A stretch of DNA of 27,870 nucleotides from a virus. Below the pieces are notes generated by a model that was given only the letters and a program-made list of their open reading frames with translations, made no database searches and was not told the origin of the DNA. This document shows, one piece after another, positions 2,505 through 16,607 of the stretch (position 1 is the first letter of the stretch; the number at the start of each line of letters is the position of its first letter). The stretch covers positions 1 through 27,870 of IMG/VR virus record IMGVR_UViG_3300035187_000277, one strand, 5' to 3'. The position numbers were made by a program, and so were the translations under genes.

Positions 2505-3164
2505 ATGGAATCAGTTATCAATTGGTCTTACTCTCGTTTAAAAGATTTCATGGGTTGCCCACGTAGACACTACGAAACCCAAATCGCAAAGAACTTTCAA
2601 CAGCCCTACACGCAAGCTCTACGCTACGGTAATGCAGTCCACAAAGCTCTGGAGAAGTACGCTGTAGACGGCACACCTCTTCCAAACAATTACAAGCGAT
2701 ACCAAGGCTATGTCGATGGTATCCTGGAGATCGATGGCAACAAGTACCCTGAATACAAGATGGGGCTGCTACCTAACCGCAAGGCTTGTGACTACGAGGA
2801 TAAGAATCGGTGGGTACGTGGTATCGCTGACATGATCATCGTTGATGGTGACACGGCGCACATCGTGGACTACAAGACTGGCAAGGCCAACTACCCCGAT
2901 CCCATGCAGTTGAAGCTCATGGGCTTGATGGTGTTTGCCCACTTCCCAGAAGTGCTGAATATCAAGGCCGCGTTGTTCTTCATCATGCACAACGTCATAG
3001 TTGACGAAGCCTACACAAGAGATCAAACTGACGATCTGTGGGCACACTTCACCCCTCACCTTGCTCGGTGGGAAGCGGCTCACGCAACCAATGAATGGTT
3101 AGCTAACCCGACTGTGCTGTGCGGCTACTGTGCCGTGCGAACCTGTGAGTTCAATAGGAGTTGA
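2505..3164 (+). CDS. PD-(D/E)XK nuclease, Cas4/RecB-like
   Basis: Probable DNA exonuclease of the PD-(D/E)XK superfamily, 219 residues, acting in replication or recombination. Visible motifs: SRLKDFMGCPRRHY at 10-23, GNAVHKALEKY with H46, GIADMI with D109, the core D122-Y-K124-T-G-K, and Q135-L. Four cysteines, C18 plus C206-x2-C209-x4-C214, fit the [4Fe-4S] clamp of Cas4 and AddB-type nucleases. The start is the ATG at 2505, placed by AGGAG at 2492-2496 eight bases upstream; a GTG at 2484 is in frame but has no such site. It follows polA directly and its own 3' end supplies the AGGAG for the next gene. Polarity and iron-sulfur binding are inferred from the motifs only. Confidence 0.88.
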   Translation: MESVINWSYSRLKDFMGCPRRHYETQIAKNFQQPYTQALRYGNAVHKALEKYAVDGTPLPNNYKRYQGYVDGILEIDGNKYPEYKMGLLPNRKACDYEDKNRWVRGIADMIIVDGDTAHIVDYKTGKANYPDPMQLKLMGLMVFAHFPEVLNIKAALFFIMHNVIVDEAYTRDQTDDLWAHFTPHLARWEAAHATNEWLANPTVLCGYCAVRTCEFNRS

Positions 3165-3165
3165 C

Positions 3166-3480
3166 ATGCCTTACGTTAACAAACCAAGGCCATACAAAAA
3201 AGAGTATCAGCAACAAAAAGCTAGAGGTGAACATGCAAACCGCATGGAGCGACAACGAGCTAGACGAGCTGTTGACAAGCGCGGTAAGGATGCTGATCAC
3301 GATGGTACGGCAGACGCAAGAGAAGGTAAGGATATCGCTCATCGACGCGCCCTATCAAAGGGAGGTACGAATGGAGATGGATACACAATACAATCTCCAA
3401 GTGCGAATAGATCCTTTCGCCGTAACTCCAAACGACAATTAGTTTCGGAAGTTAGCAAAAGAGAGAGAAAAAAGGGTTGA
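3166..3480 (+). CDS. Small HNH-endonuclease-like protein with EF-hand-like loop
   Basis: A basic 104-residue protein. Residues 54-87 (GKDIAH..ALSKGGTN..., then SANRSFRRN) follow the layout of small phage HNH-type proteins in which D/H, an LSKGGTN loop and a final N/R block make the beta-beta-alpha metal site. H59, N69 and N81 or N87 are the candidate metal and catalytic residues. Just before it, residues 42-53 read DADHDGTADARE, a textbook EF-hand spacing. The N-terminus (1-40) is rich in Arg, Lys and Gln, suiting nucleic acid contact. The start is the ATG at 3166 with AGGAG five bases upstream; the gene begins one base after the nuclease stop. Its last bases form the -35 box of a promoter. 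Whether it cuts DNA is not shown by sequence. Confidence 0.75.
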   Translation: MPYVNKPRPYKKEYQQQKARGEHANRMERQRARRAVDKRGKDADHDGTADAREGKDIAHRRALSKGGTNGDGYTIQSPSANRSFRRNSKRQLVSEVSKRERKKG

Positions 3481-3504
3481 CATATTCAATGTAGCCCTTA
3501 TAAT
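3477..3504 (+). promoter_or_regulatory. Consensus sigma-70 promoter
   Basis: A perfect -35 box TTGACA at 3477-3482 and a perfect -10 box TATAAT at 3499-3504 are separated by 16 bases, one shorter than the optimum. Transcription would begin near 3510-3512 and run rightward toward the SNF2 helicase. The -35 box overlaps the stop codon of the HNH-like gene. This is the only fully consensus pair I found. It implies use of the host's housekeeping RNA polymerase. Confidence 0.85.
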
Positions 3505-3709
3505 TTACATGTGATCCAGACGGGGGGCGTTTCTCGGCAGTTGGAACGTCATAGTCGTTAGGTGTGAGTGGACACCCCAATAAACCGCATCAACTAGGCA
3601 GCGTTTACAGCTTTACATAGTGGAGCCTCCTGGCGTGTTAGGTCTAGTCGCATCGTCGGGGATTTTCCCCGACGCGTGCGTGACAAGTTAATTTAGTTAT
3701 GGATAAGTT
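3505..3709 (+). other. Non-coding leader or candidate small RNA region
   Basis: About 205 bases with no convincing reading frame lie between the promoter and the helicase gene. It holds a small hairpin (GGTGT at 3561-3565 with ACACC at 3572-3576), a possible bulged stem pairing the AAACCGC around 3582-3589 with GCGTTT near 3601-3606, and a strong GC-rich hairpin at 3650-3679. The heptamer GTTAGGT occurs twice, at 3557-3563 and 3637-3643. I do not recognise a tRNA, tmRNA, 6S RNA or known ribozyme. It could be a structured 5' leader of the helicase mRNA, a separate small RNA, or part of a replication origin; the sequence does not decide between these. Confidence 0.5.
3650..3679 (+). other. Strong GC-rich hairpin upstream of the helicase gene
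   Basis: CGTCGGGG at 3654-3661 pairs perfectly with CCCCGACG at 3667-3674 across an ATTTT loop. The stem can be lengthened by GCAT (3650-3653) with GTGC (3676-3679) across one bulged C, with one G-T wobble. There is no following T-run, so it is not a classical intrinsic terminator in this direction. It ends 31 bases before the helicase ATG and should be present in any transcript from the consensus promoter. Confidence 0.75.
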
Positions 3710-5092
3710 ATGCAAGACTATAGCTGGCCCGGAATGTTCAAGCCGTTTGATCACCAGAAGACGACGGCACAATTTCTAACTGACAACCCACGGGCTTTCT
3801 GCTTCAACGAAGCAGGTACGGGCAAAACGTCATCGGTCATATGGGCCTGTGACTATCTGATGAACCAAGGCATCCTCAAGCGTGTGCTAATCATCTGCCC
3901 ACTATCAATTATGTATTCAGCATGGCAGGCAGACCTATTTAAGACTGCTATGCACCGTAGAACAGCCGTGGCTTATGGATCGGCGACCAAGCGGTCAAAG
4001 GTTATCAACGGTGGTTACGAGTTCGTCATCATCAACTATGATGGTGTAAATATTGTAGCTAAAGATATTTATAACGCTGGGTTTGATCTCATCGTAGTTG
4101 ATGAAGCCAACGCTTACAAGACCTCAACAACATTACGTTGGAAAACACTCAAGGCTTTAGTCCTACCATACACAGGGTTGTGGATGCTGACAGGCACTCC
4201 TGCTTCTCAGTCGCCTGTGGATGCGTACGGGCTTGCCAAGCTAGTCTGCCCAGAGAATGTACCAAAATTTTTTGGAGCATGGCGCGACAGGGTGATGTTC
4301 CCCGTTACTAAATTTAAGTGGATGCCCCGCCCCGGTGCTAGAGAGGTGGTCTATAAAGTATTACAACCTGCGATCAGGTTCACTAAAGATGAGTGCTTAG
4401 ATCTGCCAGAGGTCATGTATCAGTACCGTAGCGCCCCGATGACTGGGCAACAGCAGAAATATTATCTATCACTCAAGAATGAACTGCTGATCAAAGCAGC
4501 GGGTGAGAAGGTCAGTGCAGTCAATGCCGCCGCTATGCTTACTAAATTGTTACAAATTTCTGGTGGGGCTGTTTACACAGACAGCGGAGAAGTGTTAGAG
4601 TTTGACGTATCGCATCGCTTGCGTGTGCTTGAAGAAGTGATGGTTGAGACTGAGCGCAAAGTTATAGTCTTCGTACCATACACGCACACGATTGAGCTTG
4701 TTCATAAACATCTTATCAAAGGAGGTTACACAGCAGAGATTGTCAACGGTCAAGTCAGCGCGGGCGAACGTGCTGCTATATTTTCTAGATTCCAAACAAC
4801 GGATCATCCACGGGTGCTTGTTGTACAACCTCAAGCAGCGTCGCATGGCATCACACTTACAGCAGCAGATACGATTGTGTTTTGGTCGCCTGTCATGTCA
4901 GTGGAAACGTATATACAGTGTGTAGCCCGTATTGATAGAGTGGGCCAGCAGAACAAGATGACTGTGATTCATCTTGAAGGTTCAGAAGTAGAGAGAAAGA
5001 TGTACCGCATGTTGGAAAACAAAATTGATTTACATGAGAAGTTAGTTGAGTTGTATTCATCTGAAATGGAGGCTGATAATGAATCTGAATGA
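3710..5092 (+). CDS. SNF2-type DEAD/DEAH-box helicase (superfamily 2)
   Basis: ATP-dependent DNA translocase or helicase, 460 residues, probably acting in phage replication, recombination or fork repair. Motifs in order: F-x2-HQ near residues 13-16 (Q-like motif), Walker A GTGKT with K39, Walker B D131-E-A-N, LTGTP (motif III), VFVPYTHT (motif IV), and the C-terminal RecA lobe with ASHGITLTAADTIVFWSP and QCVARIDRVGQ, giving arginine fingers R407 and R410. This is the SNF2/Rad54-like layout but minimal, without added chromatin or HNH domains. The ATG at 3710 has only weak ribosome-site similarity (GGATAAG); an internal ATG at 3734 is an alternative. The 3' end overlaps the next gene by 14 bases. 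Confidence 0.92.
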   Translation: MQDYSWPGMFKPFDHQKTTAQFLTDNPRAFCFNEAGTGKTSSVIWACDYLMNQGILKRVLIICPLSIMYSAWQADLFKTAMHRRTAVAYGSATKRSKVINGGYEFVIINYDGVNIVAKDIYNAGFDLIVVDEANAYKTSTTLRWKTLKALVLPYTGLWMLTGTPASQSPVDAYGLAKLVCPENVPKFFGAWRDRVMFPVTKFKWMPRPGAREVVYKVLQPAIRFTKDECLDLPEVMYQYRSAPMTGQQQKYYLSLKNELLIKAAGEKVSAVNAAAMLTKLLQISGGAVYTDSGEVLEFDVSHRLRVLEEVMVETERKVIVFVPYTHTIELVHKHLIKGGYTAEIVNGQVSAGERAAIFSRFQTTDHPRVLVVQPQAASHGITLTAADTIVFWSPVMSVETYIQCVARIDRVGQQNKMTVIHLEGSEVERKMYRMLENKIDLHEKLVELYSSEMEADNESE

Positions 5093-9593: not shown

Positions 9594-9780
9594 GGAACCA
9601 GAGTGGATTCTGCCCTACGAGTTCATGGAGGTAGGTGAAAGCTTTTTTATACCTACCGTCCACATCGCTAACACCCACCATGTCATTGACGAAACATCTA
9701 AGCGGGCAGGTGTACGAGTGAAGTGCTACACCATCGTAGAAGATGGTGTGCTGGGGGTACGATGTTGGCGGCTGGCTTAG
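9586..9780 (+). CDS. Small phage hypothetical protein, 64 aa
   Basis: The GTG start at 9586 is preferred over an in-frame ATG at 9553, since GAGGA (9573-9577) lies eight bases upstream and the overlap with the preceding stop (GTGATTGA) is eight bases. The protein reads FMEVGESFFIPT near the start and VRVKCYTIVEDGVLGVRCW at the end. I remember this 'VGESFF(V/I)P...GVR.WR' plan from many short, unannotated phage proteins; function unknown. Its stop overlaps that of the converging late operon. Confidence 0.78.
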   Translation: MIEEPEWILPYEFMEVGESFFIPTVHIANTHHVIDETSKRAGVRVKCYTIVEDGVLGVRCWRLA

Positions 9781-12700
9781 TCTGGCTCAATGCCGTACGC
9801 GGCAACGGACTGCACAAAAGCTGACTTCATCTTATTTTGGTTATCAATCAAAACACGGACTTGGTCTTGCCTCTCTTTGATCGTGAGGTTTGTATTAGTC
9901 CTTGTCTTGTTGGCAAGTTCGCGCAATTTGTTTAGCTGTCCGTTGAACTTATTGTAGTAGTCGATGACTGACTTGTCGTAAGGATGTTCTTGGAAATAGT
10001 CAGCTATCCTTTCTGCATCGCCGCTTGAAGTATAGGCACGGTAGCGCCGCTCCAGGTTCTTGATTTCTTTCTCAACTTCACTGAACTGCCGTGCATCGTA
10101 GTTAGATGGGGCCTTCAGATAGGCATCAAGCAAGAGCGTATCAGTTTTGAAGTCGAAGTCTCGGTTACCGGCAATCGTATGCGCCGTGTTGTAGCTCCAT
10201 GATGCAAGTCGTGACACACCATCAAGATAGTTATTGGAGAAGAAGTACATCGTGTTGGGAGACACATCGATCTTGCCATCTGACATGTTGTACAACAAAC
10301 GAGCAGCATCTTTGAAAAACTCTGGGATGTTATCTCCACCTGTGTAGGCGTCATTGTTTCGTGACTGCCTGTTGTTGTAGATCTCGCGGCCAAGGCCATC
10401 CATGTTCATCGCCCACTCAAAGAGAGGCTTCAATGCACTGGGAAGTACAGAGTCAAGAGCAGCTTCTACAGGATGCTCAAACTTGTTGATCTTGGAGATC
10501 GGGATAGGCATGAAGGATTCAGCACCAGCATCCAAGACGTTGTTGATGAACTGACCGAACGACTGCGAACCTGACGCAAAGGCTGCGATCTGAGCACCCA
10601 CTGATGCAAAAGCGCCAGGGCCAAAACCCCAAGGTATCTGCAAAACAATATCTTTGCCGCCTGACTGTAGGCCAGTATTGAATCGAGCATTACGCACCCA
10701 CCGTGCAGTATCGTCGGTCAATACTTTGTTCCTACCTTCATCATCGTCGCCAGCCATAGCTGCTGCCATCATGAACGTTGCCGCGCCGACACCGAACAGA
10801 GTAGCTGACACAGTAGCAGCACTCTTAGTTCTGTTGCGATATTCTTTGACAAGCTTGTTGATGTCAGCGTCGGTTAGCTTACCAACATCCTCGGCTTCTT
10901 TCTTAACTATCTTTTTGAGTTCTTCGTCGGATTTGAAATAGTCAAGGGCTGGGGACAAGGCTTCGTAAGCGCGTACTGCACCTGTGGCTGCTGGCCTGAA
11001 AAACATGAAGAACGCGCCAAGTTCTTTACCCCTGATGCCTGTCTTTTCAAAGTTAGCAAGGTTTTTAGCGTAAGCAACAGCTTCAATTTTTGCTTGTTCA
11101 ATCGGCATACCTTCGGCTACAAACTGATCCCGCATCGTACGGTAAGCGGCAATGCGAGTAGACATCTCAAACATGTCGAGCCAAGCATCAAAGAATTTAT
11201 TTGCCCCGCTCAAAGACTTGATGACACCATTTTGGTCTGCCGAGTTGACTGCATCAGTAAGATTATCTTTGATGGTTATGCCTTGCAGGTATGCCACTCG
11301 ACCGCCTAGTTCGTAATACTCTCTAAGGTCTTTATAGAAAGGGTCGGTCTTGGCAAGACGAGCCATCTCAGCTTCATTACCACGACTAAATGCAAGCGAG
11401 TATTTGGCAGTTTTAGTAAAACCGTTCTTGGCTAAGATACTAGCCATTTCAGTCATTACCTGAAACCCACGCTTACCAGAAGTCTCAGCACCAAGCACCC
11501 CTGCATAGGTGAATAAGTTACGCAGAAAGTCCATCGGGGCAAACGCTGGGTTAAAGCGGGTGTGCATCTGCCCAAACATGCTGGTGGCTTTGCCTAGGCT
11601 ATCAACAAACCAATTGTCATCACGTAACGGGCGTTTGATAGCCTCAAGCATTTGCCTATCGTTGATTTCATAAATTTGAATTTTACCGTCGGGCAAATAA
11701 TGGAATATATTTTTTACACCACGTTTAAGTTCTTCATTAAGTTTGTTGTCAAATCTCTGTTCAAACGAAACTGTCTTTACAGGCTTACCACTGATTATTT
11801 TTGAGTCTATTAGGTTTTTAATTGAAAGCGTAACCCCAGCCTCATGCCTACCAAGCCGCATGGCGGATTTGCTAGCTTCATTAAGAACATTCAGGATTGG
11901 GTTATCTGCGTCAGTGATACGACCATCAAAAGCTTCTTGTTTGTCTTGAAGATCCCCACCAACGTTTTGCCCAAAGTAATCTAATTGATAGTCAGAAGGC
12001 CCAGTATCAGGTCTACCCTTAAACGGGAAGTAAAACTTAAAGTCATAGAAATCAACTAAGTTCTGTACTGGCGGTGAAAAGTAGTTTGATTTTTTGTTAA
12101 GGTCAATCGTTGTCTGTTCAATCTTTTGAAGTATGTCTATAAGTTTTTCAGCTTTAGTTTTATTGTCGCCGCTAAACGCACGACCAAATGCCTCTATTTG
12201 ATCTAAGCTATACGGGCCTAGTGTGTTGTAGGCTTCGTTGTTCATATCAAATAGTGGAGAAGTCTTAACCCCCTTTGCCGCCACAAGTGCTTCCAACTTT
12301 GCAAGCAGTTTTTGAGCTTCTTGTTTAGCCGCAGCGTCGCCCAATTTATTTCGGTCTATTTTAATTACGTCTTTTATGATGCTGTCACGATCCCTAACTG
12401 CTTGGTTATCAGTAAGGGGTACTTCCCGCAGGTATTTAATTTTTCTACGTTCTGGGTCATGCAAGTGAATTGCATACATGTGTAAGCGAGCTAAAGCATC
12501 TTGTACCGTAATACCCATAGACTTAGCTAAATCGGCCAACATGTCGTTGGCCTTACTGATGTCTGTATAAAAATGCTTTTGGTATGCGTTTTCCGCACGG
12601 CCTGCTGATGTAGCTAAGGCCGTACCCAAGTTGTTTTGGTCTTTGCCAAACGATATTAATTTACCAACTCTACGTAAAATATTATTTATACGATCAACTC

Positions 12701-15700
12701 TATACCTATAGTTTTGTGCTTGCTCAATAATTCTTGTACGACCATCTTTATTAAAAGCGTCTTTAAGCGCACGAGTTTTTGTGGCAAGTGTTGGCTTTTC
12801 AGCTTCCATCTTTGACACAAGACGATTACCCGTTTCTTTGATAGTTTTTTGAGCCTCGGCATCAGTTATTTGTAAAGACTTATCAAACTCTGGTATGGCT
12901 TCTGGCGCACTAAGAATTTGTTCAAAGTTTGCCATGAGGTCAAACAGAGCGTTTTGTTCATTTAGTTCTACACTAGCTACGTCAGTCTGCACAGCAGAAG
13001 TGTCACCTCTGCCAGCAATGATGGCAGCATCCACAAGACGATTTATTCTTGATTCATATTCTTGTTTAGATATTTTTTGTGGCTTTTCGCTAGGACGTTT
13101 CTCTCCTTTTTTGCGCCCACTTTTACCGTATTCAATCTGTTCGATTTCTATGTCTGGTATTTGATACTCTTCCTCTGCAATTGCTTCTAATTCTTCAAGT
13201 GCTTCTACGTTTTCTAGAGTAGGCTCAACTCTTTCTTCGACAGTATCCCGCAAAGCCTGAATACTGTCATACAACTCACGTTTTCTAGTAGGTACAAATT
13301 CTTTTGGCGTTATACGTAGGGTTTTTAAAAGCCCTTTTATACCCAACAAGTCCGCTATCCTATCAACCAAAGTACTCCATGTACTTGGTAATTTTGCTGT
13401 AGGCATGGGCGAAGGCATCTTACGTAAGACGGTCTGCATATTAGGATCAGACAATCCGTAAGATATAAACTCATACACGTTTTCAAACGCGTTTGGAAAA
13501 CTACCTTTTATACCAGGGTTTCTTTTTGCCGCGTTGTATATTTTAATTATGTCTTGAGCAGCTTGTTTTTGAGTATCTGACATCCCCGCTCTATTACCCG
13601 TAAGATATTTATACATCATCTTAACGGTGACAGCATGAACAAGTTCATGCATCAGGGCGGTTTCATTTAATGCCCTATCAGTAATAGTAAGAGTATCTGT
13701 GCGTGGGTCGTATTCCGCAATAAATGTGCTGGCTTTGCCTTCAGATCTCAAAAGACGCGCTGCCTCTGCGCGAGTAGATGGGTCTTTAGATAGTGTGGGT
13801 ATATATCTAAGTTTTGTGTCGATACCACCTAAGTCACGTATAAGTGAAGCAATACCTCTATTAATAGCACCGGATAACCGAGTACCTCCAGTAACAGCTT
13901 GTAAAAACGAAGTGCCTGTATACGGTTGCTTTTTCTGATAACCTTTAGCTAAATTAGCTAAGTAATCAATTACTGTTTTTAAATTACCCTGTTTAGCTGC
14001 TTCTGAAATATCAGTAGGTAATTCAGTACCAGCCATACCAAGTTTTTCTGCTTGGATCTCACGTTGAGCTTTACCGTATGCAGTTTCTGCTTTACCTTCA
14101 TCTAATTCTTCTTTAGTTACTTCTTCAGTACCTAAAGATTCATTATAGTTTTGTATCGCATCAAAACCTTTTATTACTTGCTCGCCCGTTACTTTACCTT
14201 TAAGAGGGGCTTCGCCAAGATAGGCTTGTTGTTCATCTTCAGTGAGTTCAACAAACGAAGGTAAATTTAATTTACGTAGTTTTGATTCAATCCTACGATT
14301 TATTTCGTAAGCTGCTATTGAATTAGCTACTATATCTGCTCGCGCCCCTGCTTCATCAGTAAAAGATTTTTTCTTGTCGCGGTAGTCAGATAATTTAGCT
14401 AAGGCTTTGGTAGCGCCTGCTGGGGTCAGATCTTTACCCAAGGCATCCACAAAAACTTCACGTTCATCAGCCGTTAATTTGCCACCCTTTTCTTCGCCAG
14501 CTTTTATTTCTTCAGTCGTTAAATCGCGGAACAGTTTAGGCAACCCACGAGTTTTTAAACTCTTAGATCCTCTTGCGGCAGCGTCTTCATAAAGGGCTGC
14601 TATGCGATCTTGTTGCTGAGCGTATCTTGTCTGGTCAAACGGTCTTAGTATTTCTGACGCAAAATTAAAATCTTCTGGGTCTATTGGTTTGTTTTGCCTT
14701 AATTCATCTCTTACTGAATTAACAAAATCTAGCTCTTCTTCAGACAGGGTCTCTTCAATTTCTTTTAAGCGAGCTTCTTCATTAGCTCCAATTGAAACAG
14801 CACCTTTATTTTTTGCAGCTTTTTTTCTAGCTTCAAGCGCAGCTTTAGCCGCAGCTCTTTTATCGCTTAAGTCTTTTGGTTTAGTTTCAACAACGGGTTC
14901 GGTTGTGGTTGCAGCGGCACCTGCCACTGCTGCTCCTTGAGCAGGCGCTTCTTCTCTTGCTTCTTCTTTTTGCTGGGCTTCAGGGGACGTAACGACACTG
15001 AGGGTTCCTTGTTGAGTTGCAGGGGCTTGTTGTTGGGCTAATGCAATGTCAGGTTGTTGCGCTCCCACTCCAACCTGCTGAGAAGCATCTGTAGCACTCC
15101 CCATTCCGTCGGTAGAAGGTGGTGCAGCTCTTCCGGTAGTGGTTTCACCTCCGGGTCTGACAGATAGATCAGTGCCTGTTCCACTTGGCTGTTGGTCAAC
15201 TTGGTCAAGTTGCTCACCTTGTTTCTCCTCTGTAGCTGGTTTAGGCGTCAAAAATTTAGTCAGCGCATTGACTAATTCTTGGTTATTTTTGGCGCGTAAA
15301 AAACCTTTAACTTGCGTTTCAGGCAAGCCTAAAAGACGAAGACTATTCTTGATCTCATTCTTAACGCCCCTTTCTTTTAGGGCTTCTGGGTCAATAGTGA
15401 ACCTTTCTAAGTCTTTGAGTGTAGTTTGAACTTGTGCAGGATCAAGATCTTCAAGCTTTAACTTCTTAGCTTTCTTCTGGGCTTCGTCAGTTTCTTCAGT
15501 CGTCGTTTCTTGTTCTTGGTCTTTTAACGTACGACGAAACTCTTCAGCTTGTTGGTCACGCGGCGTAGTCCCAGGCAATGCACCCAACCCTGCACCTAGT
15601 CCTGCACCTGCCAAACCTTCAAGGGCTGCTTGCCCTGCAACCCCTCTAAACGTAGGAACGTCAAAGCCTGCGCGTTGCAGTGCAACATTCTCAGCTAATT

Positions 15701-16607
15701 GTTCTTGACCAGCCTGCGCCATTTCAGGCACAGCTTCAGTAGCCCCTGCGGTAGCCGAACGACGTAATAACCCAGGTGCCGCAGCCTCAACTCCTTCTTG
15801 AGCTGCCTTCTGAGTAAAGCGTTTTAGGAGAAGATCTTCAACACCGATCTTACCGGCTATACCACCAAGCACCGTACCCGCTAAAACTTGGCCCCAGTTT
15901 TCTCCTGTGTAGGACTGAGCTTCACGAGCTTTACGCTCGGCAACTTTGGGATCTTCTCCAGAATCTGTGAGCGCACTTTTAACAGCTTCGTAAATCGTGC
16001 CTTTGACAGTACCTGCACCCATCGCCGCGCCGAGTCCAGTCTGTACTGCGCCAATACCCGTTGCTCCTAACCTAGCTACTGAACCAAGAAGACCGCCAGC
16101 AACAATCGGTGCGGCAGTGCCAAGAGCTTGGGAGAGCATATCAACAGGCGCAGTAGCAAAGGCTTGGACTGCGGCAACAAGCTGATCACCGATGCCTTTA
16201 TCCTCGGCATCTTTCATGATCTGGGCTATCTTCTTCTGGTCATTCTTAGCCTGTGCCGAGTACAGCTCACCAAGCATATCCTCCATGCCACGGTAGGCTT
16301 GCGATACAACATTATCAGGTCCAAAAGCATCCGCAATCATGCGGATACCCTGTGCGGCACCGCGTGCTATACCAATAGGTACGTCTGCTACTTGACGTAG
16401 AACAGATTGTTTTTCTGGTTTTGGCTCTGCCGCTGGTTGTTCTTTAGGTTTATGAAGCTCATCATAAACACGTTGGGCCTCTGCAAGAGAATCGGTTGGT
16501 TGCCCTCTCAAAGACCTATAGGCATTCGCAACTGTTTCAAAATCAGAGGTGCCTTTTTTATCTTCGTTTTCAATCAACCATTTTGCATAAGCAGATAGCC
16601 GATCCAT
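9777..16607 (-). CDS. Giant polyvalent virion protein with HExxH metallopeptidase
   Basis: 2276 residues, last gene of the late operon, most likely an internal protein ejected into the host. It starts with a short WLIENEDKKGTSDFETVANAY segment, continues with a Gly/Ala-rich hydrophobic region (about 155-350) and long Pro/Gln/Glu linkers. At 983-992 it has ALMHELVHAV; H987, E988 and H991 form a zinc-peptidase site, with E1046 in NVYEFISYGL as the likely third ligand. Around 1685 comes TRFNPAFAPMDFLRNLF and around 1872 GAFFMFFRPAATGAVRAYE, typical of C-terminal domains of phage 'large polyvalent proteins' (LPD38-like, by memory). A hydrophobic stretch near 1937-1960 may enter a membrane. Its size and place parallel T7 gp16. 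The middle (roughly 11650-14850) is markedly AT-rich. Confidence 0.85.
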   Translation of the reverse strand: MDRLSAYAKWLIENEDKKGTSDFETVANAYRSLRGQPTDSLAEAQRVYDELHKPKEQPAAEPKPEKQSVLRQVADVPIGIARGAAQGIRMIADAFGPDNVVSQAYRGMEDMLGELYSAQAKNDQKKIAQIMKDAEDKGIGDQLVAAVQAFATAPVDMLSQALGTAAPIVAGGLLGSVARLGATGIGAVQTGLGAAMGAGTVKGTIYEAVKSALTDSGEDPKVAERKAREAQSYTGENWGQVLAGTVLGGIAGKIGVEDLLLKRFTQKAAQEGVEAAAPGLLRRSATAGATEAVPEMAQAGQEQLAENVALQRAGFDVPTFRGVAGQAALEGLAGAGLGAGLGALPGTTPRDQQAEEFRRTLKDQEQETTTEETDEAQKKAKKLKLEDLDPAQVQTTLKDLERFTIDPEALKERGVKNEIKNSLRLLGLPETQVKGFLRAKNNQELVNALTKFLTPKPATEEKQGEQLDQVDQQPSGTGTDLSVRPGGETTTGRAAPPSTDGMGSATDASQQVGVGAQQPDIALAQQQAPATQQGTLSVVTSPEAQQKEEAREEAPAQGAAVAGAAATTTEPVVETKPKDLSDKRAAAKAALEARKKAAKNKGAVSIGANEEARLKEIEETLSEEELDFVNSVRDELRQNKPIDPEDFNFASEILRPFDQTRYAQQQDRIAALYEDAAARGSKSLKTRGLPKLFRDLTTEEIKAGEEKGGKLTADEREVFVDALGKDLTPAGATKALAKLSDYRDKKKSFTDEAGARADIVANSIAAYEINRRIESKLRKLNLPSFVELTEDEQQAYLGEAPLKGKVTGEQVIKGFDAIQNYNESLGTEEVTKEELDEGKAETAYGKAQREIQAEKLGMAGTELPTDISEAAKQGNLKTVIDYLANLAKGYQKKQPYTGTSFLQAVTGGTRLSGAINRGIASLIRDLGGIDTKLRYIPTLSKDPSTRAEAARLLRSEGKASTFIAEYDPRTDTLTITDRALNETALMHELVHAVTVKMMYKYLTGNRAGMSDTQKQAAQDIIKIYNAAKRNPGIKGSFPNAFENVYEFISYGLSDPNMQTVLRKMPSPMPTAKLPSTWSTLVDRIADLLGIKGLLKTLRITPKEFVPTRKRELYDSIQALRDTVEERVEPTLENVEALEELEAIAEEEYQIPDIEIEQIEYGKSGRKKGEKRPSEKPQKISKQEYESRINRLVDAAIIAGRGDTSAVQTDVASVELNEQNALFDLMANFEQILSAPEAIPEFDKSLQITDAEAQKTIKETGNRLVSKMEAEKPTLATKTRALKDAFNKDGRTRIIEQAQNYRYRVDRINNILRRVGKLISFGKDQNNLGTALATSAGRAENAYQKHFYTDISKANDMLADLAKSMGITVQDALARLHMYAIHLHDPERRKIKYLREVPLTDNQAVRDRDSIIKDVIKIDRNKLGDAAAKQEAQKLLAKLEALVAAKGVKTSPLFDMNNEAYNTLGPYSLDQIEAFGRAFSGDNKTKAEKLIDILQKIEQTTIDLNKKSNYFSPPVQNLVDFYDFKFYFPFKGRPDTGPSDYQLDYFGQNVGGDLQDKQEAFDGRITDADNPILNVLNEASKSAMRLGRHEAGVTLSIKNLIDSKIISGKPVKTVSFEQRFDNKLNEELKRGVKNIFHYLPDGKIQIYEINDRQMLEAIKRPLRDDNWFVDSLGKATSMFGQMHTRFNPAFAPMDFLRNLFTYAGVLGAETSGKRGFQVMTEMASILAKNGFTKTAKYSLAFSRGNEAEMARLAKTDPFYKDLREYYELGGRVAYLQGITIKDNLTDAVNSADQNGVIKSLSGANKFFDAWLDMFEMSTRIAAYRTMRDQFVAEGMPIEQAKIEAVAYAKNLANFEKTGIRGKELGAFFMFFRPAATGAVRAYEALSPALDYFKSDEELKKIVKKEAEDVGKLTDADINKLVKEYRNRTKSAATVSATLFGVGAATFMMAAAMAGDDDEGRNKVLTDDTARWVRNARFNTGLQSGGKDIVLQIPWGFGPGAFASVGAQIAAFASGSQSFGQFINNVLDAGAESFMPIPISKINKFEHPVEAALDSVLPSALKPLFEWAMNMDGLGREIYNNRQSRNNDAYTGGDNIPEFFKDAARLLYNMSDGKIDVSPNTMYFFSNNYLDGVSRLASWSYNTAHTIAGNRDFDFKTDTLLLDAYLKAPSNYDARQFSEVEKEIKNLERRYRAYTSSGDAERIADYFQEHPYDKSVIDYYNKFNGQLNKLRELANKTRTNTNLTIKERQDQVRVLIDNQNKMKSAFVQSVAAYGIEPD

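Follow-up and report, generated by a model that had tools for sequence, protein, structure and literature searches.

What does a phage encode in a stretch that holds no gene, begins with a strong promoter, and leads straight into a helicase gene? We addressed this question for the noncoding gap between position 3442, where a 93-residue ORF ends, and position 3710, where a helicase gene starts, in a window of viral DNA (the whole stretch of 27,870 bases analyzed here). The original prediction, made from the letters of the window, had described a consensus promoter followed by a gene-free, hairpin-bearing region and had offered three readings of it: a phage small RNA, a regulated leader for the helicase, or the replication origin. 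Both the promoter and the gene-free stretch were confirmed. The exact TTGACA-N16-TATAAT sequence occurs once on the two strands of the window and in none of 100 dinucleotide shuffles, and the boundaries of the flanking genes leave the stretch noncoding, although an alternative overlapping frame runs to 3480. No tRNA or tmRNA was found in the 27,870 bases. Judging from the geometry of the promoter, transcription of the window RNA would begin near position 3511 (∼3510). The same promoter was found in five relatives (L001–L005), and among 122 motif copies, 17% had a promoter with at least 10 of 12 matches in the 117 bases preceding the loop, compared with 0.8% of control windows. In several phages with a strong promoter, transcription would be expected to start at P1, the first helix of the structure described below, or close to it. 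RNA copies that abut the previous gene must be co-transcribed with it or use another promoter.

The gap, as judged from its predicted pairings and their conservation, encodes a compact structured RNA composed of a hairpin (P1), a pseudoknot, a P4/P5 stem with a conserved bulge, and a final hairpin (P6), the positions of which are given in Table 1. P1 has 3 bp in this phage and up to 7 bp in relatives. In L005, substitutions within the additional 5' hairpin P0 preserve its pairs in an alignment judged by eye. The 12-bp hairpin originally placed at 3650–3679 proved to be real but to differ in detail: P6 has a core of nine perfect pairs, CGTCGGGGA/TCCCCGACG (3654–3662/3666–3674), and extends to 14 pairs with a 1-nt bulge over 3649–3680. 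Similarly, both occurrences of the repeated GTTAGGT exist, but they belong to separate structural elements, one to the start of the P1 loop (3557–3563) and the other to the P5/P4 bulge (3637–3643), where most relatives have GACAGG. Segment 3550–3680, comprising the core and P6, is unusually stable (z −2.9, with 1 of 200 shuffles equally stable).

Table 1. Features of the noncoding gap and its flanking genes in the window
Feature	Position	Strand	Evidence or comment
Upstream 93-aa ORF, function unassigned	3161–3442	+	Similar small ORF upstream of the RNA in relatives read
Sigma-70-type promoter TTGACA-N16-TATAAT	3477–3504	+	12/12 matches to consensus
5' hairpin P0 (3526–3533 pairs with 3543–3550)	3526–3550	+	Predicted fold; present in closest relatives
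P1 hairpin (3550–3556; loop GTTAGGTGTGAGTG, 3557–3570; 3571–3573)	3550–3573	+	7/7 P1 pairs with compensatory changes in relatives
Pseudoknot strand 1, GGTGTG in P1 loop	3561–3566	+	Partner 3586–3591
Pseudoknot strand 2, CGCATC, preceded by conserved AAC	3586–3591	+	Covariation
P4 5' strand ACTAGGC	3593–3599	+	7/7 P4 pairs covary
P5 5' strand GCGT	3601–3604	+	4/4 P5 pairs covary
P5 apical loop with pyrimidine motif CCTCCT (3626–3631), anti-Shine-Dalgarno-like	3605–3632	+	CUCC enriched in loop
P5 3' strand GCGT	3633–3636	+	Covariation
Conserved 5-nt bulge GTTAG	3637–3641	+	GACAG or GTCAG in most relatives
P4 3' strand GTCTAGT	3642–3648	+	Covariation
P6 hairpin, 14 pairs, one bulge	3649–3680	+	Most relatives have a shorter hairpin with loop CGTAA
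SNF2-like DNA helicase gene, directly 3' of the RNA	3710–5092	+	PHROG 62, E 3.7e-100

A protein search with the helicase provided 80 IMG/VR loci as relatives. The upstream regions of many of them share the words GTTAGG..GAGTG, AACC..TCAG, and GACAGG, from which we derived the structure, with its 14-nt P1 loop and a pseudoknot pairing GGYRYG in that loop with YRYRUC downstream. In the first 21 copies, 97.5% of cells were paired, and 21 of 24 pairs had changed on both sides. Because retrieval by motif pattern favors certain pseudoknot letters and thus biases its covariation, the count was repeated on 39 copies, the window and helicase-derived loci, chosen independently of the RNA motif. Here, 96.2% of pair cells held standard pairs, 23 of 24 pairs showed compensatory changes, and none of 500 shuffles reached either the pairing or the covariation score; in a control in which the partner was slid by one to three columns, pairing fell to 25–41%. 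A set of 98 copies agreed with this result. The alignment model contained P1, P4, and P5, so the figures for these helices lean toward it; the pseudoknot lay outside the model, and 98.3% of its cells were paired, with five of its six pairs changed on both sides. Its variants include AACATG/CATGTT (L039), GGTATG/CATACC (L051), and GGCGTA/TGCGTC (L006). The fold is precise and open to test, its 6-bp pseudoknot being one that can be broken and restored. The unpaired bases of the core are highly conserved, to the point of being near-invariant. Compensatory changes in the hairpin stem, which the original prediction had named as a check, were present in the P6 of L005, the nearest relative to show differences, the helicase of which is 90% identical: two pairs are changed from G-C to A-U.

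Such changes point to a function at the level of RNA, and by its covariation the region qualifies as a structured noncoding RNA. That it is instead a promoter and 5' untranslated region of the usual kind, its hairpins arising by chance, is hardly credible: the folding stability of the full 230-nt stretch (3511–3740) is ordinary (z −1.1), as this explanation would have it, but chance hairpins do not account for compensatory changes in 23 of 24 pairs when slid controls pair at 25–41%. A coding role for the core was also considered and rejected, as the helices covary, loop lengths vary, and the window copy is without the ATG found in others. Signs that the RNA would be transcribed come from the promoter geometry and from the terminator-like ends described below.

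We next turn to where the RNA is found. In whole-record searches of 45 phage records, 26 had a strong match, with one copy apiece, 4 had weak matches only, and 15 had none; the weak matches (E 0.005–0.05) fell in four records of an RNA-less clade and were excluded, one of them being judged antisense to coding sequence from its coordinates. A weak model match in phage KPP25 (E 0.007) was likewise dismissed, the motif being absent there by eye. The helicase lies downstream of the RNA in 119 of 135 pattern-defined copies. In seven phages (L155, L168, L202, L219, L232, L245, and L249), the RNA is found just after a DnaB-type gene, with a long GC hairpin directly 3' of it; the first nine tail bases include five or six T in L168, L202, L219, and L232 and four T in L155, L245, and L249. 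In further phages (L147, L215, L221, L312, L347, L352, and more), it stands before unrelated genes or alone. A small ORF follows the RNA in L347, L353, L385, and L409, where a short inverted repeat lies immediately upstream. The RNA is missing from one large sister clade and from two further lineages and is therefore dispensable in some phages. Many members of the sister clade keep the promoter, and in six of them (L029, L041, L043, L057, L062, and L074) a TTGACA promoter precedes the helicase with no RNA between. In the helicase tree, the RNA-less phages fall in three places, consistent with three losses of the RNA.

Homologues also occur in bacterial chromosomes. When 84,980 species genomes were scanned with a motif pattern, four chromosomal copies emerged (L190–L193), all betaproteobacterial and two of them in genomes named Polynucleobacter, each with a stem and a T tract after the core. 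Over the bacterial family (398 genomes), the phage-form model hit nothing beyond the starting genome; in the genus-level group, it led to a second, more divergent subtype (B), which shows covariation of its own in eight sequences, in which its pseudoknot pairs barely vary. A model of subtype B matched 13 of 151 Polynucleobacter-group genomes and 5 of 399 genomes of the order, and one P. kasalickyi genome (G047) carries both subtypes at separate loci (L256 and L257). Fifteen viral contigs also carry subtype B, for the most part in the exonuclease–RNA–helicase slot that the other subtype uses, and one phage copy (L305, 381–525) scored 95 bits with the chromosomal-form model. Because of these viral occurrences and this score, the sequences are best described as one RNA family with two subtypes, common to phages and bacteria, and the L305 score suggests exchange between phage and host. 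Freshwater phages that form a large uncultured group carry the RNA in this one slot, and an abundant freshwater bacterium has close relatives of it in its chromosomes.

In the eight chromosomal loci that were read, ∼30 to 100 nt separate the RNA from the genes before it, which are either a pair of MTAQ type or MerR plus VIT/VWA. The gene that follows most closely in the Polynucleobacter loci read is usually on the opposite strand. A fixed association of the chromosomal RNA with a single protein partner was rejected, as the neighbor is either the MTAQ pair or MerR plus VWA, and both also occur without the RNA. The MTAQ-type pair (L293, 6310–7382; no Pfam match in the copies scanned) and the MerR-like plus VWA genes (L290, 4641–7369) are patchy in the genus.

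What follows the core differs among these contexts. A hairpin comes directly after it in 90 of 98 copies compared with 13 of 98 shuffled tails. In phage copies that precede the helicase, this is mostly a P6 with the loop CGTAA, and 62 of 73 such tails have fewer than five T in the first nine bases. In the operon-end copies and many of the chromosomal ones, the hairpin at the place of P6 resembles an intrinsic terminator; within subtype B, T runs are present in L261, L262, L264, and L268 and weak or absent in L257, L266, and L267. The P5 loop carries CUCC in 72 of 98 aligned copies, compared with 16 ± 3 in shuffled loops, and about a quarter of copies are without it. This CUCC loop resembles an anti-Shine-Dalgarno sequence. 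Small RNAs with C-rich anti-Shine-Dalgarno loops include RsaE/RoxS and the alpha-proteobacterial CCUCCUCCC RNAs. The likeness is one of the loop, an exposed CUCC-type sequence that could pair with Shine-Dalgarno sequences, and we claim no homology; small RNAs of this kind are not known to contain a conserved pseudoknotted core. In L006 and L007, a hairpin loop 5' of P1 holds a CCCCTCTCCTTC stretch, a second pyrimidine-rich loop.

Consistent with the original statement that no known RNA family was recognized, none of the 4227 Rfam 15 models credibly matched the window (E up to 5), five type A phage loci (E up to 3), or the chromosomal loci L190, L191, and L193 together with eight type B loci (E up to 5); the hits returned lay outside the RNA and far below the family cut-offs. 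BLASTN found nothing similar to the window region, L016, or L128 among cultured phages and nothing similar to the L262 copy among plasmids. The manA and wcaG motif RNAs, which are likely 5'-UTR regulators of metabolic genes, are comparable in being structured RNAs common to phages and bacteria and largely metagenomic (PMC2864571), but no Rfam family matches the RNA described here. Nearest in the literature is the HRC-28-1 motif, likewise an orphan structured RNA, found mostly in Polynucleobacter, that ends in an intrinsic terminator and has been proposed to be a 3'-UTR element; its reported site is flanked by rpiA and by PRK05408, a gene for oxidative damage protection (Brewer et al. 2021, PMC8632094). 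Unlike for the phage RNA here, the part of that source describing the motif names neither a phage nor a pseudoknot (PMC8632094). The contexts of our chromosomal copies also differ from the HRC-28-1 site as it is described there. Using Pfam PF04362 (Iron_traffic), which we take to be a marker for PRK05408, we searched six such loci from Polynucleobacter-group genomes with the phage-form model only and obtained no match (best 9.4 bits, E 0.12). Compared by description and by the phage-form model, the two RNAs are probably distinct. Within Rfam 15, the BLASTN searches, and the literature searched, the family is therefore undescribed. Phage dark matter has mostly been searched for proteins; here, it contains a strongly covarying RNA family.

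As to function, we favor, with a probability of about 0.6, the view that this RNA family, as yet undescribed, is independent of position and works as RNA, probably by binding a host factor or an mRNA, rather than a switch dedicated to the helicase. In the window, the RNA would be the 5' part of a transcript that starts at its own strong host-type promoter and reads on into the helicase. Its core of ∼100–150 nt folds into P1, the loop-to-strand pseudoknot, P4/P5 with its conserved asymmetric bulge, and P6. Both the pseudoknotted core and a loop rich in pyrimidines (CUCC or CCUUUC) would most likely be exposed for contact with a host factor or an mRNA. The RNA may act in trans or after excision from the mRNA; we infer both the trans action and a binding partner for the RNA. 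Among the three readings originally offered, the small RNA is the best supported, because homologous copies occupy operon 3' ends, where terminator-like hairpins follow, and chromosomal loci, where many have terminator-like tails. The helicase leader came through in part: its position fits most phage copies and leaves the operon-end and chromosomal ones unexplained.

That leader is also the main rival, namely a cis-acting element that would regulate how the helicase is transcribed or translated, either in the manner of a riboswitch or by binding the helicase itself or another phage protein. The predominance of the helicase among downstream genes would favor it, as would the use of one slot by both subtypes, the placement of P6 just before the ribosome-binding site, the highly conserved unpaired bases of the core, and the scarcity of T-rich tails after P6 in most copies that precede the helicase. 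Even so, we regard it as unlikely. A riboswitch or leader is expected consistently upstream of the gene it regulates and on the same strand; instead, the RNA of seven phages closes an operon, behind its final gene and ahead of a GC hairpin, others have it before unrelated genes, the gene nearest downstream of the chromosomal RNA usually lies on the other strand, and the sister clade has the promoter and the helicase without the RNA. A self-cleaving ribozyme or RNase-processing element, which would cut phage mRNA or trim its ends, could explain why a compact fold with a pseudoknot, in which the helices vary and the unpaired bases hardly do, occurs in both 5' and 3' untranslated positions; it appears improbable to us, as Rfam, ribozyme families included, returned no match and some chromosomal copies resemble stand-alone transcription units.

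The RNA could alternatively act while nascent, modifying RNA polymerase to suppress termination or pausing in the manner of HK022 put. Like putL, which lies just behind an early promoter (PMC9378689), the RNA follows a strong host-type promoter in the window and several relatives, although this is true for some copies only, and it lies ahead of replication genes. The architecture is another: put RNA comprises ∼70 nt in two stem-loops (PMC9378689), whereas the core here is larger, contains a covarying pseudoknot, and occurs at the ends of operons and in host chromosomes as well, and antitermination makes little sense for copies with terminator-like hairpins and convergent genes directly behind them. 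We consider this a poor candidate. Still further from the evidence is a replication origin or phage primer RNA, in favor of which stands the location among DNA polymerase, exonuclease, helicase, and primase genes. The GC skew of the 28-kb window has no switch at the RNA (3.5 kb) and changes sign near 9–11 kb, where the coding strand switches; moreover, homologues lie in bacterial chromosomes and at other positions in other phages, and the compensatory changes speak for RNA. The origin originally proposed is thus very improbable.

The surroundings of the chromosomal copies raise a further idea. In all four chromosomal loci scanned against a defense library, the neighbors are known defense genes, a figure not controlled for background frequency near other loci: ZorABC (L293), HmaA (L290), a PDC-S37 protein (L292), and MzaB with MzaC (L295). 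It is conceivable, although we hold it to be rather doubtful, that the RNA takes part in phage–host conflict, with chromosomal copies in defense islands serving as decoys or as defense-cassette RNA against phages that need this RNA, or with phage copies mimicking and disarming a host RNA. Should the link to defense prove causal, an RNA and not a protein would stand at the center of the arms race, which is rare. Clades without the RNA, two subtypes in one slot, and chromosomal copies beside defense genes together provide a natural experiment.

Two further observations concern proteins of the window. Its helicase begins at the conserved domain, and those of relatives such as L012 and L016 seem to have an N-terminal extension of ∼70 residues. 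On the minus strand, positions 9777–16607 encode a 2276-residue protein in which an LPD38 domain lies close to the end.
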